Assembly: GCF_020150815.1 (NCBI RefSeq)
Contig: NZ_CP083723.1
Span: forward strand, 2,046,001 to 2,110,000
DNA: 64,000 nt
From: Haloprofundus salilacus
GTDB taxonomy: Archaea; Halobacteriota; Halobacteria; Halobacteriales; Haloferacaceae
Direction of reading: 5' to 3'
Both the position numbers and the translations under genes were made by a program. Positions 25,279 through 31,047 of this stretch are shown one piece after another. The notes under the pieces were generated by a model. That model did not search any database, was not told the origin of the DNA, and saw nothing but the letters and a program-made list of their open reading frames with translations. Positions within the stretch are counted from its first letter, which is position 1, and every line of letters starts with the position of its first letter.

Positions 25279-25295
25279 TTGTTAGCACATAACAA
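25279..25295 (+). promoter_or_regulatory. Inverted repeat at promoter position of the integrin-like gene
   Basis: TTGTTA and TAACAA are perfect complementary arms separated by 5 nt, ending 26 nt before the start codon. This overlaps the expected TATA position, so it may be the promoter core or an operator for a dimeric regulator. Confidence 0.35.
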
Positions 25296-25321: not shown

Positions 25322-28300
25322 ATGAGCACAACCCGACAACAACGGGTGTCGGGGTACACCGTCGGAACGGTCGTCCTCGTTCTTCTCGTCGGGACGGTTT
25401 TCGCGGGCGTCGGACCGCTCGCCGCACTCGGGTCGCAGTCCCACGAGACGACGGTAACAGGGCCGACAGCCGCACAGCAGACCGACGACCCACTTGGTGG
25501 AACCGTCGACGGCGACCGAAACCTCTCGACGGCGAACACGACGTTCGCCGGACAGAACGTGACCGACCGCGCCGGGTGGCGAGTCGTTCCCGCCGGCGAC
25601 GTGAACGGCGATGGCGCAGGTGACGTCCTCGTCAGCGCGCCGCGGGCTGACCGCGGTAACGCGACGAACGGAACGCCGAACGTCGGCGTCGACGCAGGTG
25701 CAGTCTACCTCTTCTACGGCCCCGTCGACACCGAGCGTCTGAACGTCTCGGAGGCGAACGTCACCTTCGTCGGCGTCGAAGCCGGCGACCTCGCCGGGAC
25801 GAGCGTCGCCGCGGGTGACGTCGACGGCGACGGTCTGAGCGACGTACTCGTCGGCGCACCCGGCGTCAACGGAAGCACGGGAGCCGTCTACCTCCTGCGT
25901 GGCTCCGAGAACCGCTCCGGTATCGTCTCGTTGGTCGACGCGAACGCTACCGTCGCGGGCACCGGAGGCGGCGACGAGTTCGGACACTCGCTGGCGGTTC
26001 TCGGCAACGGCAGCGACGAGTTCGCCAACGCGACGAACGCGACGGCGGTTCTCGTCGGCGCACCGTACAACGATACCGCCGGTAACGATTCGGGTGCGGC
26101 GTATCTCTTCGACCCGGTCGCGCTCGGAGGCGACGCGTTCGAAAACGCGACGACCGCAAACGCAACCTACCTCGGCGAGGCCGAAAACGACCGGGCCGGC
26201 TGGGCGGTCTCAACCGCAGGAGACTTCGACAACGACAGTCGAGTCGACTTCCTCGTCGGCGCTCGCGGCAACGACAGCAGCGCGCCGAACGTCGGTGCGT
26301 CGTACGTGATACTGGACGCCAACGAGACCGGCGACCGCTCGCTTTCGGACGCGTCGGTGAGACTCGCCGGAGTCGGCGCGGACGACAACGCCGGGTTCGC
26401 CGTCTCCGAGGCGGGCGACGTGAACGCCGACGGGTTCGGTGACATCCTCGTCGGCGCGCCGGGCAACGACACGAACGGACCCAACGCCGGTGCCGGGTAC
26501 GTCGTCTTCGGCAGCGACTCGCCGCCAGCGACACAGTCGTTGCGTGACGCGAACGCGACGCTCTACGGCGTCGGCGACGGTGACCAGGCCGGGTGGTCCG
26601 TCTCAAGTGCGGGTTCGGGCGACGTGAACTGTGACGAGTTCGACGACGTACTTGTCGGCGCGCCACGCAACGGCACGAACGGCTCCAACGCGGGTGCGGC
26701 GTATCTCGTCTACGGCGGTGACACGCTCGACGGCCCGCAGAGCCTCGCCGACGCGAACGCGACGTTCAGCGGCGCGGGCCCGAACGACCGGGCGGGCTTC
26801 TTCGTCTCCGGTGCCGGCGACCTCAGCGGCGACGAGAGGGAGGATATCCTCGTAGGTGCGCCGTACGCCGACAGCAACGAACCGGGTGCGGGCGCGGCGT
26901 ACCTGATTCAGGGTCGCTGTGAGGTGCCGGAACCGCCGCGAGAACAAGCTGAGCCGGGAGAACCGGGGACGCCTAGCACACCGAGTGGGCCCGAGACACC
27001 CGGAGCGCCTGAGACGCCGGGCGAATCGGGAACACCGACCGAAGAACCACAGGACACGCCGACTGAACGGCCGCCGACAGAGACGCCCACTGAAACGCCT
27101 CCTCCGGGCCCGGCAGTGCAGTCGGTGACTGCTGAGTCGGTCGACTGCGAGCAACTCAGATTCGAGAACCCGAACGATTTCGCAGTGAACGTGAGCTACA
27201 CCGTTCTCTACGAGACAGAAAGCGTCCCGAACACGACGAGAAACATCGTACTCTCGCCCGGGGGAACCAGAGTCGTGAATGACTCGGCTATCGGTGCCGA
27301 TTCGTTCAGTCAATCGACGATACGAGTCACCGCTGAGCGCGAAGACTCATCCGGCGACCAAGTGCCGGTGAACGACGACCGTGAAGTGCGTCTCGACGGC
27401 GTCCGCTGTGGCGGCGTTCCGAACATCAACGTGACGAAGGACGACTGCAACCAGTTCACCCTCGAAAACCCGAACCCGTACAGGGTGAACGTCACCTACG
27501 ACATCAGTCGTAACGGCACGGAGGTCGTGACGCGGAACGTCACGCTGGCACCGAATGAGACCCGAAACGTCTCTGACGCGGAACTCTCGACCGAGAACGA
27601 CACGCTCGTCGAGATCAACGTCACCGCCCAACGCGCCGATAACGGTGCAGTTGTGTTCATCAACGACCCGACTGGCGAACTCGGTCGCGAGAGCTACTCG
27701 ACTCGAATCACGGCGTGCGTCGACATCGTGCGGTCGGTAAGCATCAATTCGACCGGCTGCGAGCAGTTCACCATCACGAACCCGAACGCCTTCGCCATCG
27801 AGGTCAGGTACACGTACGCTCGATTCCCGTACGACTTCAGGTCGTTCCCCGGTGCGATAGACAATCCGCCGTTCCCGCCGCTGTTAGTCGAACCGGGTGA
27901 GACCATTACGGTCAAAAAGTCGGCGTTCGGAGGCGAAACGTTGCTGTTCTCGGTCCGATCTGCGGACGGGACAGATAGAAACGTTCCAAGGAACGGGGGA
28001 ATCGGTCCCGAACCAGTGGAGATCGCGGATTGCCCGGATACCGAGTTCGAACCGGTCCACGTCACCTCAGAACAGTGCGAGGAGTTCATCATCACGAACC
28101 CGAACGAGTTCAGCGTCGACGTCACGTACTCGCCGAACCGCAGCGGTGCGGCGTCGCAGTCAGTGACGGTCGGTCCCGGTGAGACGATGACGCTCAACGG
28201 TTCGCAGTTCGGCGAGGCGTACCGATTCTCCGCCTACTCAGAGGAGGTAGACGCCGAAGTGCCGATAAGCGGCGGAGAGCGACGACTCGTCGTCGGCGAG

Positions 28301-29209
28301 AGACGGTCGTGGGTTGTCGAGTCCGAGCCGTGCCCGGAACCCGAAATGCAGTCGCTCACCATCTCGTCCGAGCAGTGTCAGCAGTACACCATCACGAACC
28401 CGAACAACTTCAGCGTCAACGTCTCTGCTGTCTACAACCTCGACGGTCCACCGGACGAATCCGTCATCGTCGGACCAGGTGAGACCGTGACGGTCGAGGC
28501 GGCCGAAGGTGCCGATACGCGATTCAGCGCGTTTTCCGACGAAGTCGGCGTCCGCGTTCCGGTCAACGGTGGGGAGACGGCTGACATTGAAATCGCGCCG
28601 TGTCCGGAACCACAGGACATCGTCGTCGAGTCGGCCGACTGCGAAGCGGTGACCGTGACGAATCCCAACGAGTTGAACACGACCGTCAACTACCGACTCA
28701 GTACCTCGGAAGTCGTGTTCTCCGTCGAACTCGAACCGGGAGAGACGAGAACTATCGAGGATTCGAACTTCGGGGGCGAGACTGTCATCTTCTCGGCGTT
28801 CCGCGAGGACAGCGCTCGGGTGCAGGTCAACGGTGAGAGAACGGCCCAGATAGCGGTAGAAGAGTGCCCGGAGACGACGACCGAGACACCGACAGGAACG
28901 CCGACACAAACCCCGACGGAAACGCCGACCGAAACACCAACTGAAACGCCGACCGAGACGCCCACAGAGACGACTACGACGACCGAGCCCGTGACACCGA
29001 CCGAGACGGCAACGGAAACCGAGACTGAGACGGAAACCGAGACGCCGACTGAGTCATCAACCGAAACTCCGACCGAGACGGACTCCGACGACACCGCGAC
29101 GACTACCGAGTTACTCGTCGGGACGGTCGCATGGTCTGCAAGTGCCTTGCCGTGGGCGATGCTGGTCGCGCTTCCGCTGTTGGTTCTACGGCGCTACCAC
29201 CGCCGCTGA
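25322..29209 (+). CDS. Giant integrin-alpha-like surface protein: FG-GAP propeller, six Cys-paired repeats, Thr stalk, anchor
   Basis: A 1295-residue exported protein. A hydrophobic signal (TVGTVVLVLLVGTVFAGVGP) is followed by seven FG-GAP repeats (about 72-532) of the form GDVNGDGxxDVLVGAP...GAxYLxxG; seven suits a closed integrin-type propeller, and DxNxDGxxD loops would bind calcium. After a Pro/Thr/Glu linker come six repeats of 85-105 residues (about 599-1182), each opening with a Cys, then (F/I/V)xNPNxFxVxVxY and PGET, and closing with a second Cys. A Thr/Pro/Glu stalk, a C-terminal membrane helix and RRYHRR finish it. Dozens of N-x-S/T sequons suggest heavy glycosylation. The end does not read as a PGF-CTERM sorting signal. 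Likely adhesion or surface recognition; the ligand is unknown. Confidence 0.88.
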   Translation: MSTTRQQRVSGYTVGTVVLVLLVGTVFAGVGPLAALGSQSHETTVTGPTAAQQTDDPLGGTVDGDRNLSTANTTFAGQNVTDRAGWRVVPAGDVNGDGAGDVLVSAPRADRGNATNGTPNVGVDAGAVYLFYGPVDTERLNVSEANVTFVGVEAGDLAGTSVAAGDVDGDGLSDVLVGAPGVNGSTGAVYLLRGSENRSGIVSLVDANATVAGTGGGDEFGHSLAVLGNGSDEFANATNATAVLVGAPYNDTAGNDSGAAYLFDPVALGGDAFENATTANATYLGEAENDRAGWAVSTAGDFDNDSRVDFLVGARGNDSSAPNVGASYVILDANETGDRSLSDASVRLAGVGADDNAGFAVSEAGDVNADGFGDILVGAPGNDTNGPNAGAGYVVFGSDSPPATQSLRDANATLYGVGDGDQAGWSVSSAGSGDVNCDEFDDVLVGAPRNGTNGSNAGAAYLVYGGDTLDGPQSLADANATFSGAGPNDRAGFFVSGAGDLSGDEREDILVGAPYADSNEPGAGAAYLIQGRCEVPEPPREQAEPGEPGTPSTPSGPETPGAPETPGESGTPTEEPQDTPTERPPTETPTETPPPGPAVQSVTAESVDCEQLRFENPNDFAVNVSYTVLYETESVPNTTRNIVLSPGGTRVVNDSAIGADSFSQSTIRVTAEREDSSGDQVPVNDDREVRLDGVRCGGVPNINVTKDDCNQFTLENPNPYRVNVTYDISRNGTEVVTRNVTLAPNETRNVSDAELSTENDTLVEINVTAQRADNGAVVFINDPTGELGRESYSTRITACVDIVRSVSINSTGCEQFTITNPNAFAIEVRYTYARFPYDFRSFPGAIDNPPFPPLLVEPGETITVKKSAFGGETLLFSVRSADGTDRNVPRNGGIGPEPVEIADCPDTEFEPVHVTSEQCEEFIITNPNEFSVDVTYSPNRSGAASQSVTVGPGETMTLNGSQFGEAYRFSAYSEEVDAEVPISGGERRLVVGERRSWVVESEPCPEPEMQSLTISSEQCQQYTITNPNNFSVNVSAVYNLDGPPDESVIVGPGETVTVEAAEGADTRFSAFSDEVGVRVPVNGGETADIEIAPCPEPQDIVVESADCEAVTVTNPNELNTTVNYRLSTSEVVFSVELEPGETRTIEDSNFGGETVIFSAFREDSARVQVNGERTAQIAVEECPETTTETPTGTPTQTPTETPTETPTETPTETPTETTTTTEPVTPTETATETETETETETPTESSTETPTETDSDDTATTTELLVGTVAWSASALPWAMLVALPLLVLRRYHRR
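25535..26917 (+). repeat. Seven FG-GAP (integrin alpha beta-propeller) coding repeats
   Basis: Seven diverged units of roughly 60-72 codons, each with a Gly-rich GAP turn and a DVLVGAP or DILVGAP strand. Units 3, 4 and 7 have degenerate calcium loops (for example GNGSDEFAN and GDLSGDERED). Confidence 0.85.
27115..28869 (+). repeat. Six cysteine-paired Ig-like coding repeats
   Basis: The repeats begin with DCEQLRFENPN, DCNQFTLENPN, GCEQFTITNPN, QCEEFIITNPN, QCQQYTITNPN and DCEAVTVTNPN. Each ends with a second Cys, usually in (A/P)CPEP, and a PGET turn lies mid-repeat. The spacing of first cysteines is about 264-318 nt. I do not recognise the domain; it looks like a small beta-sandwich with one disulphide. 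Confidence 0.75.
28870..29100 (+). repeat. Thr/Pro/Glu low-complexity stalk coding region
   Basis: A run of TETPTETPT-type codons with alternating synonymous choices, giving a rigid O-glycosylatable stalk between the last repeat and the membrane anchor. Confidence 0.75.
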
Positions 29210-29257
29210 GGCGATTTCTCGCCCTCCAGCGTCGTCATATCTCTCGAATGGCATGGA

Positions 29258-29264
29258 TTTTTAT
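29258..29264 (+). promoter_or_regulatory. Candidate TATA box for GT4 gene
   Basis: TTTTTAT is centred about 27 nt before the glycosyltransferase ATG, downstream of the surface-protein stop. It suggests separate leaderless transcription of the glycosyltransferase. Confidence 0.4.
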
Positions 29265-29287
29265 CACCGCCCGACATTCCGGTGCGT

Positions 29288-30343
29288 ATGCGTGTCGCGT
29301 TCGTCTCGATGCTCACGACGCATCACGAAGAGACGCCGGTGACTCGGCGAACGCGACGAACCGTACGATACCTGTTGGACCGCGGCCACGAGCCGGTCGT
29401 CCTCTGCGCGAAGTGGTGGGGCGGCGAGGTCGTTGAGTTCGAACACGAGGGAATTACCTACCGACGGGTGTCGGACGAGCCCTCGACGCGCGGATTCGCC
29501 TCGAAACTCCCGTTCGCGCTCCGAAAAGTCGGTGCGGACGTGATTCACGCGGTGAACAGTCCGCCGAAGCACGTCGCCGCCGCGAAGACGGCCGGACGAT
29601 TTCTCCGGACGCCCGTCGTCGTCGACTGGTGGGACGACCCCGAGAACGCCCGTTCGGGCTACCGCCGCGCCGCCAAGCGAGCCGACTTGGTCGTCGCACC
29701 GTCGGAGACGGTGAAAACGTGGGTCAGAGAGTACGGCGCACCCGAAGAGCGCATCGAAGTCGTTCCCGGCTGTATCGACACTGCGCTCGTCCGCAAGAGG
29801 GAGACCGACGAACGGGCGCAGCTCGTCTACGCGCGGCACCTCGACGAGCACGCGAACGTCGAGTCGTTTCTGCTCTCGCTCGCTGAGTTGCGCGACAGGG
29901 ACTGGTCGGCCGCCGTCGTCGGCGACGGTCCCGAGCGGGAACGGGTCGAGCGAACCGCCCGCGACCTCCGCATCGACGACCGCGTGACGTTTCTCGGGGC
30001 GCTGTCGGACGCAGAACTCGTATCCGTGCTGAAGGGCGCGCACGTGTTTGTCCAGACCGCCGAGCGCGAACCGTTCGCGCGGAACCTCCTGTGGGCGCTC
30101 GCCTGCGGCTGCGTCAGCGTCGTGGAGTACCAGGTCGGGTCCAGCGCCCACGAACTCGTCGAAGGCCGCGAGCGGGGGTCGCTGGCGACCAGTCCGCAGG
30201 AGATAGCCGAGCGAATCGTCGCCGCAGGCGCGTTCGACCACTGGGCACACGACGAGGCGTTCGACGGGTACGACTGCGACGACGTGCTCGGCCGCTACGT
30301 CGACTGCTACGAGCGAGCCGTCGACAGTTACGGGCTGTTCTGA
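29288..30343 (+). CDS. GT4 family glycosyltransferase
   Basis: A 351-residue GT-B fold enzyme. The N-terminal acceptor domain starts MRVAFVSMLTTHHEETPVT. The C-terminal donor domain contains VVGDGPERERVERTARDL and VTFLGALSDAELVSVLKGA, followed by a diverged version of the E-x7-E region (REPFARNLLWALACGCVSVVE), in which the first Glu and the Gly/Ala-rich loop that bind a nucleotide sugar remain. It has no membrane helix, so it works at the inner face. It directly follows the heavily sequon-bearing surface protein and precedes a sequon-array halocyanin, so a part in glycoprotein or glycolipid synthesis is plausible but not shown. A GTG two codons upstream is a less likely start. Confidence 0.88.
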   Translation: MRVAFVSMLTTHHEETPVTRRTRRTVRYLLDRGHEPVVLCAKWWGGEVVEFEHEGITYRRVSDEPSTRGFASKLPFALRKVGADVIHAVNSPPKHVAAAKTAGRFLRTPVVVDWWDDPENARSGYRRAAKRADLVVAPSETVKTWVREYGAPEERIEVVPGCIDTALVRKRETDERAQLVYARHLDEHANVESFLLSLAELRDRDWSAAVVGDGPERERVERTARDLRIDDRVTFLGALSDAELVSVLKGAHVFVQTAEREPFARNLLWALACGCVSVVEYQVGSSAHELVEGRERGSLATSPQEIAERIVAAGAFDHWAHDEAFDGYDCDDVLGRYVDCYERAVDSYGLF

Positions 30344-30390: not shown

Positions 30391-31047
30391 CTACGACTCG
30401 TAGTCGCCGCCGTACTTGATGAAGAAGTAGCCGAGACCGAGCGTCGCGACCATCGAGAACGTCGTCGCGACGCCGATGGATTTGGCGCTGTCGGGGACCG
30501 ACGGCACGCTGGATCCGCCGCCACCTTCACCACCGCCGCCGCTTCCGGCGTCTTCGCTGACCTCTATCGTCCCGACCATCCCGGCGTCCTCGTGTGGTTC
30601 GCAGACGTACTCGTATGTCGCCTCCTCCTCGAAGGTGTGCTCGAAGGAGAATCCTTCGTCGTGAATCTGCTCTTCGCCCCAGTCGCCCTCGTTGGGGACG
30701 ACGTTGTGGCCGTCGGACGCCCACTCGAAGACGACCGTCGTCCCCGGTTGGATGGAGAGTTCCTCGGGGTCGAACGAGAGTCCGTCGCTCCCGGCGCCGA
30801 CCGTGACGGTTTCGGTGCCGCCGCCACCGCCGCCCGACCCGCCGGCTGACTCGTTACCGGAGGACTCGTTACCGGAGGACTCGTTGCCCGCCGTCTCATT
30901 TCCGGCTGTTTCGTTCCCCGACGATTCGTTGCCGGACGTGCCGTTTCCGTCCTCTTGGGCGGCTGCGGTCGTCGCCCCCGCCACTGTCGCGGTCGCACCG
31001 GCCGTCGCCCGGAGGAACGTGCGCCGCGAGATAGCGTCCTTGCTCAT
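30391..31047 (-). CDS. Tat-exported halocyanin with N-glycosylation sequon array and membrane anchor
   Basis: A blue copper electron carrier of 218 residues. The twin-arginine signal is SRRTFLR (8-14). Residues 33-70 hold seven sequons (Asn35, 40, 45, 50, 55, 60, 65) spaced exactly five residues apart as GNE(S/T)xx units. A Gly run leads into the cupredoxin domain, with His in DGHNVV and Cys, His and Met in CEPHEDAGM. A second Gly-rich linker precedes the C-terminal membrane helix (SIGVATTFSMVATLGLGYFF). It is related in layout to the copper protein of the cytochrome b cluster but much more decorated. It probably shuttles electrons at the outer membrane face. Confidence 0.9.
   Translation of the reverse strand: MSKDAISRRTFLRATAGATATVAGATTAAAQEDGNGTSGNESSGNETAGNETAGNESSGNESSGNESAGGSGGGGGGTETVTVGAGSDGLSFDPEELSIQPGTTVVFEWASDGHNVVPNEGDWGEEQIHDEGFSFEHTFEEEATYEYVCEPHEDAGMVGTIEVSEDAGSGGGGEGGGGSSVPSVPDSAKSIGVATTFSMVATLGLGYFFIKYGGDYES

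Follow-up and report, generated by a model that had tools for sequence, protein, structure and literature searches.

What kind of surface protein is encoded at positions 25322-29209 of a 64,000-nucleotide stretch of the Haloprofundus salilacus genome (assembly GCF_020150815.1, contig NZ_CP083723.1, positions 2,046,001-2,110,000 of the forward strand; hereafter the window), and what could such a protein do for its owner? The open reading frame (ORF), whose coordinates we confirmed, lies on the plus strand and encodes 1295 amino acids (aa). An original prediction, made from the sequence alone, saw in it an integrin-alpha-like giant with a calcium-binding propeller, six repeats of no recognized domain, a Thr stalk, and a membrane anchor, and placed it with a neighboring glycosyltransferase and a second sequon-rich protein in an adhesion or recognition apparatus. 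The propeller, the Ca2+-type loops, the unnamed repeat, and the surface layout all hold up, whereas the sequon-rich neighbor drops out as an adhesion component, and "giant" is an overstatement for 1295 aa. We lean, if only slightly, toward a membrane-anchored, probably N-glycosylated, lollipop-shaped surface receptor, in which the head binds a partner and the leg serves as an adjustable spacer.

The seven-bladed head

The head (aa 65-533; 25514-26920, plus strand like all other parts of the protein) is recognized by Pfam as FG-GAP in six stretches (127 bits against a cut-off of 22.1; E 1.9e-37) and as FG-GAP_2 in five (40.6 bits against a cut-off of 23; E 3e-10). The LVGAP-type motif occurs seven times and a blade profile yields seven blades, confirming the count of exactly seven units; with seven repeats above the family cut-off, the head belongs to the FG-GAP/integrin-type beta-propellers (PF01839). 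The predicted structure, built on an alignment of the window protein, the locus L073, and ten bacterial loci, is a closed seven-bladed propeller (predicted local distance difference test, pLDDT, 85.4; predicted template modeling score, pTM, 0.89). All 50 matches listed by Foldseek for this model are integrin alpha chains (best E 8.9e-21, integrin alpha5), as are all 50 listed by VIA (Z 36.9-38.7; e.g., 4wk0_A, 394 residues at 2.5 A). Even a search of the PDB by sequence alone reaches integrin alpha at E 2.6e-6, the matched stretches lying within the propeller. On the predicted structure, the fold is thus closed, seven-bladed, and nearest to integrin alpha, just as had been proposed.

Asp loops with a Ca2+-type motif are located at aa 93, 166, 301, 366, 434, and 500. 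They occupy blades 1, 2, 4, 5, 6, and 7 in all five proteins of the genus, and blade 3 lacks the loop in these five as well as in 39 of the 40 intact proteins outside the genus (44/45 overall). The six loops would bind Ca2+, in line with the calcium-binding propeller originally suggested, and stiffen the head.

Seven blades were counted in all five proteins of the genus and in 40 of the 41 from outside it (all 39 propeller ORFs outside the genus from the Halobacteria list plus two Halorussus plasmid genes); the 41st is split 3+4 by a TAG codon. This single in-frame stop, between blades 3 and 4 of L156:3542-5959, marks a pseudogene, a sequencing error, or readthrough. Propeller relatives at E<=1e-20 have a patchy spread over at least 33 of 292 Halobacteria genomes and at least 12 of 77 genera, these and the other genome-wide counts being lower bounds because scoring in the profile searches covered just a share of the first-look candidates in each genome.

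The Cys-paired repeats of the leg

A Pro/Thr/Glu-rich linker (aa 534-597; 26921-27112), fast-evolving at a mean identity of 48%, leads from the head to six copies of a repeat of about 88-105 aa. The repeat profile places repeat 1 at aa 598-698 (27113-27415), repeat 2 at aa 698-801 (27413-27724), and repeat 6 at aa 1096-1184 (28607-28873). Repeats 3 (aa 802-906; 27725-28039) and 4 (aa 908-1006; 28043-28339) have no counterpart in the alignment of four orthologues, and repeat 5 (aa 1008-1096; 28343-28609) is the copy used for the structure model. Twelve of the protein's 14 cysteines fall in the repeats, the other two being at 437 and 533, and all six predicted pairs could be located (609/696, 709/799, 813/904, 919/1004, 1019/1094, and 1107/1182). 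The xNPNxFxVxVxY core that had been described holds in part: NPN is invariant in 6/6 copies, whereas F, V, V, and Y are only mostly kept.

No Pfam or NCBIfam model covers any of the six copies, in agreement with the original prediction, and CARDB (PF07705) matches none of them at E up to 10. Scans of the relatives returned one L189 copy above the PLipase_C_C cut-off by 0.8 bit and one L150 copy matching DUF7382 below the family cut-off. Whole relatives show weak Ig (immunoglobulin)-type matches (Fn3-like, ASH, LEA_2, and others), with Fn3-like in L036 and Ig_mannosidase in L030 above cut-off. Membership of the repeat in a Pfam or NCBIfam family was ruled out by these scans of window copies and relatives.

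Calling the repeat unassignable nonetheless overlooked both its fold and its other host proteins. The model of repeat 5 (pLDDT 89.4, from an alignment of nine sequences) has seven strands in the beta-sandwich arrangement of the FN3 and Ig superfamilies. VIA gives a best Z of 8.8, mostly to FN3 domains, and the first Foldseek matches are complement-like, CARDB, and FN3 sandwiches, none of them below 1e-3. Owing to this last result, the repeat is predicted to be an Ig/FN3-like sandwich at the level of fold only. By sequence, the PDB yielded no solved relative of the repeat (best E 0.51) and no integrin leg among the matches listed, and the wider repeat family gave ten weak matches there (best 2.4e-4). 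Profile-profile comparison with hhalign aligns the wider haloarchaeal relatives to the repeat over 81 columns, or most of the domain (probability 98.8); the match of CARDB is partial (83.5% over 53 columns).

A profile search with the six window copies alone, one of the checks originally proposed, found further members of the family encoded in the same genome, and members in 5/5 genus genomes. After iteration, 57 copies were found in 15 proteins of the five genomes, which rules out a curiosity of one gene. Besides the 3-6 copies behind the propeller, 1-2 are carried by a secreted protein rich in Ser and Thr, 7-8 by a protein with a membrane segment at its N-terminus, and three by one whose N-terminus looks twin-arginine-like by eye; in a 100-aa ORF the repeat stands by itself. 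The query A6 at E 1e-6 matched at least 10 of 294 genomes in a wider sample of the phylum, all from the same order. None of 29 pattern matches pursued as a viral relative was confirmed.

The cysteines come and go together. Among the 57 genus copies, 38 have both, 19 have neither, and none has only one; thinning to 60% identity leaves 18, 11, and 0. Outside the genus, the corresponding figures for 79 copies are 49, 24, and 6, and some of the six one-Cys copies may come from the fixed windows used. As the copies share descent, the Fisher p on this pairing is no true probability. In the proteins with 7-8 copies and an N-terminal membrane segment (L030:1445-4336, L036:2158-4755, and L037:1535-4438), most copies have lost both cysteines. 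That the two are lost together within a single array speaks for a bond between them, and the joint presence and absence support one disulphide per repeat, which would staple each domain between its two ends.

A constant head, a variable leg, and the surrounding locus

The remaining parts agree with the claimed surface layout, which the sequence supports. An N-terminal signal or membrane segment (aa 1-56; 25322-25489; hydropathy maximum at aa 8-38) is kept by the orthologues, which were found in 4/4 other genus genomes searched. The leg ends in a Thr/Glu/Pro stalk (aa 1185-1264; 28874-29113) with 40 Thr, 17 Glu, and 11 Pro among its 80 residues, followed by a hydrophobic anchor with an Arg-rich end (aa 1265-1295; 29114-29206). 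The hydrophobic part of this C-terminus, which comes before LRRYHRR, is also kept in orthologues. An NCBIfam scan of the whole protein (E up to 1) found no PGF-CTERM/archaeosortase sorting-signal model. The protein carries 42 sequons against 13.8 +- 3.2 in shuffled sequences, a number reached by none of 2000 shuffles; 25 of them lie in the head region, where 4.4 are expected. Together with the conserved glycosyltransferase neighbor described below and an STT3/AglB-type gene in the genome, these sequons suggest a glycosylated surface protein, so that N-glycosylation at the surface is probable.

Within the genus, the orthologues differ in their number of repeats (3-6), and mean identity is 82% in the head, 63% in repeat 1, and 57% in repeat 2. 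The ratio of nonsynonymous to synonymous substitutions (dN/dS, NG86) lies at about 0.21-0.24 in the head and 0.35-0.48 in repeats 1-2, compared with 0.10-0.13 for the neighboring S9 peptidase and 0.16-0.24 for the glycosyltransferase. Judged by these ratios, head, leg, and both neighbors are under purifying selection, the leg being the looser part. A contig scan with two propeller peptides as the only queries found one full-length relative, at 63% in Haloprofundus marisrubri SB9, and 18 other loci that match in the propeller only; given these queries, the lone full-length match is no measure of how widely the repeat occurs.

Repeat-bearing seven-bladed heads also occur in other haloarchaeal families. 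Outside the genus, 11 of the 41 propeller proteins bear the repeat in 2-14 copies; because the search that led to the two Halorussus proteins took the repeat as its query, 9/39 is the less biased figure. Repeat and propeller share a genome in at least 11 of 287 cases (2.5 expected) and a genus in at least 7 of 76 (2.2 expected), a comparison by genus that removes relatedness only in part. Overall, legs range from 0 to 14 domains, or are formed by a Thr stalk. The leg of L150 consists of five Ig domains; L151 and L153 have no repeat in the profile scan, and the leg of L151 is a Thr-rich stalk only. One divergent Cys-bounded segment was seen by eye in L153. A conserved head on a variable leg makes the leg look like a spacer, and a constant head with an exchangeable leg is the pattern expected of a binding head on display. 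Such a spacer of adjustable length might raise the head off the membrane, through or above the surface layer (S-layer).

Directly downstream lies the glycosyltransferase (29282-30343, plus strand), which the original prediction had named and which Pfam (PF13439/PF00534) identifies as of the GT4 type; it adjoins the propeller gene in 5/5 genus genomes. These genomes share the order S9 peptidase (minus), propeller (plus), GT4 (plus), halocyanin (minus), and a further peptidase (minus) labeled M42 by eye. Outside the genus, the S9-propeller-GT4 order recurs in 3 of 39 loci checked (L150, L151, and L153, all from another family), with identities of 69-72% for S9 and 46-48% for GT4. The enzyme may act on the glycans of the propeller protein or of other surface proteins. 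The second sequon-rich protein of the original prediction (30391-31047, minus strand) is a halocyanin, i.e., a blue-copper protein (Copper-bind, 9.2e-17), with a C-terminal hydrophobic segment and seven sequons, all in a Gly/Asn/Ser linker; being a halocyanin, it was struck from the adhesion set.

The footprint alignment revealed a palindrome, TTGTTA-N5-TAACAA (25279-25295, no strand assigned), which lies between 27 and 43 bases ahead of the start codon. It occurs once per genome in 5/5 genus genomes, always upstream of the propeller gene, and a reversed-pattern control gave 0. L150, L151, and L153 keep its 3' half, ATAACAAAG. It is a candidate promoter or operator element and probably overlaps the promoter. 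The gap before the GT4 start (29209-29282) contains a TATA-like stretch, GGATTTTTATCACC, strongly conserved in all five orthologous loci, which suggests a promoter of its own for the GT4 gene. Because of this conservation in so short a gap, sole cotranscription of GT4 with the propeller gene was rejected by inference.

Possible roles and known relatives

By analogy with integrin alpha, and in view of the surface layout, the protein may take part in adhesion or recognition, with a head whose partner would be a protein or glycan presented by another cell or surface. Several points weigh against such a receptor. It has no known ligand, binding site, or phenotype; related propellers occur also in lectins and enzymes, according to the part of PMC8023676 covered; and the halocyanin and S9 peptidase next to it have no adhesion role. 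The dN/dS values stay below 0.5 in head and leg, with no sign of positive selection at the scale of the genus. By the tool's own warning, a Z near 8 in VIA, as obtained for the repeat, can reflect merely a common arrangement. Finally, no match to integrin beta (PF00362) was found in the genome, a search in which the control genomes were silent as well.

The presence of lectins and enzyme-linked propellers in the VCBS supercluster (PMC8023676, in part) and the patchy distribution, over at least 33 of 292 genomes, would both suit a lectin- or substrate-binding head that captures polysaccharide or other nutrients rather than adhering to cells. We think this rather improbable, as no polysaccharide-degrading enzyme occurs among the Pfam-scanned neighbors (S9 peptidase, GT4, and halocyanin), whose order around the propeller is kept in 5/5 genus genomes. 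About the same small chance is given to a structural glycoprotein, bracing or decorating the S-layer without a specific ligand. The high sequon density (42), the conserved glycosyltransferase neighbor, and the modular leg of varying length speak for it, but it is the head that is conserved, with exactly seven blades, and not the leg; moreover, a protein found in 33 of 292 genomes is missing from most and is therefore not an essential structure. A delivery or recognition part of a cell-cell conflict system, a role suggested in print for integrin-like propellers elsewhere among the toxin systems of prokaryotes, is far less probable than either. The portion of PMC3482391 covered lists such propellers alongside exported toxin proteins that have an SpvB domain, also for Euryarchaeota; yet neither Pfam nor NCBIfam detects an SpvB, RHS, or toxin domain here, the protein ends in a hydrophobic anchor kept in orthologues, and the locus, syntenic in 5/5 genus genomes, has no variable downstream cassette.

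Returning to the anchored receptor with its spacer leg, a wider and distinctly more tentative proposal is that haloarchaea own integrin-alpha-like recognition receptors for contact-dependent behavior, e.g., aggregation, biofilm, or mating. Their seven-bladed head would be conserved and their reach tuned by gain, loss, or swap of disulphide-stapled Ig domains and of Thr stalks; a promoter element specific to the gene and a glycosyltransferase dedicated to it would complete the system. The natural differences in leg among orthologues offer a test case for how archaea recognize one another or surfaces. The repeat itself, a domain family missing from Pfam and NCBIfam, would annotate several haloarchaeal surface proteins.

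The repeat shares the Ig-like beta-sandwich with CARDB (PF07705) and FN3, both among its first Foldseek matches, but the window copies match neither Pfam model and are set apart by the NPN motif and by a pair of cysteines at their ends. Close in layout are two Halorussus plasmid genes, WP_303659015.1 (labeled "integrin alpha" by NCBI) and WP_248652404.1 (hypothetical), whose products likewise have seven blades, four repeats of the same kind, Thr stalks, and a hydrophobic C-terminal end. They differ in their gene neighborhood and in three Cys-bounded repeats of a second kind between head and NPN repeats (L043:2713-7833 and L044:2533-7833). A hypervariable Ig-domain module is reported from Thermococcales (PMC8416519).

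Within the parts of the literature covered, we came across no description of the Ig-like leg family, of this haloarchaeal locus, or of a haloarchaeal FG-GAP/integrin-like protein. Integrin-like propellers are classed in the VCBS supercluster, with its lectins and enzyme-linked propellers (PMC8023676, in part), and PMC9218822 (in part) mentions FG-GAP/integrin propellers for archaea. The seven-bladed integrin-type propellers of bacteria (Chouhan et al. 2011, PMC3192720) resemble the haloarchaeal head in their seven full FG-GAP repeats with Asp loops in nearly every blade. As far as the portion of that paper covered goes, their Ca2+ motif is present in all seven blades, whereas the haloarchaeal blade 3 lacks it in 44/45 proteins, and legs of the Cys-paired Ig-like kind are not described.

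Metazoan integrin alpha itself differs in several respects. The haloarchaeal leg is made of many Cys-stapled copies of one family, with no thigh or calf domain among its listed sequence matches in the PDB; blades 1 and 2 of the head have Asp loops too; and the protein has a Thr stalk, no GFFKR-type tail, and no detected beta partner. The motif that follows the integrin alpha membrane segment is KXGFFXR (PMC3192720, in part), and no cytoplasmic GFFKR-type motif is present in the C-terminus LVLRRYHRR. Without this tail, and with no beta partner seen in a search whose control was silent, the name "integrin" is unsuitable. What the two share is a propeller of seven FG-GAP blades with Asp loops, followed by beta-sandwich domains and a single segment in the membrane. 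With an Ig/FN3-like repeat, this layout comes nearer to integrin alpha than was originally claimed. The locus offers a test case for whether the propeller-on-Ig-leg design arose more than once.

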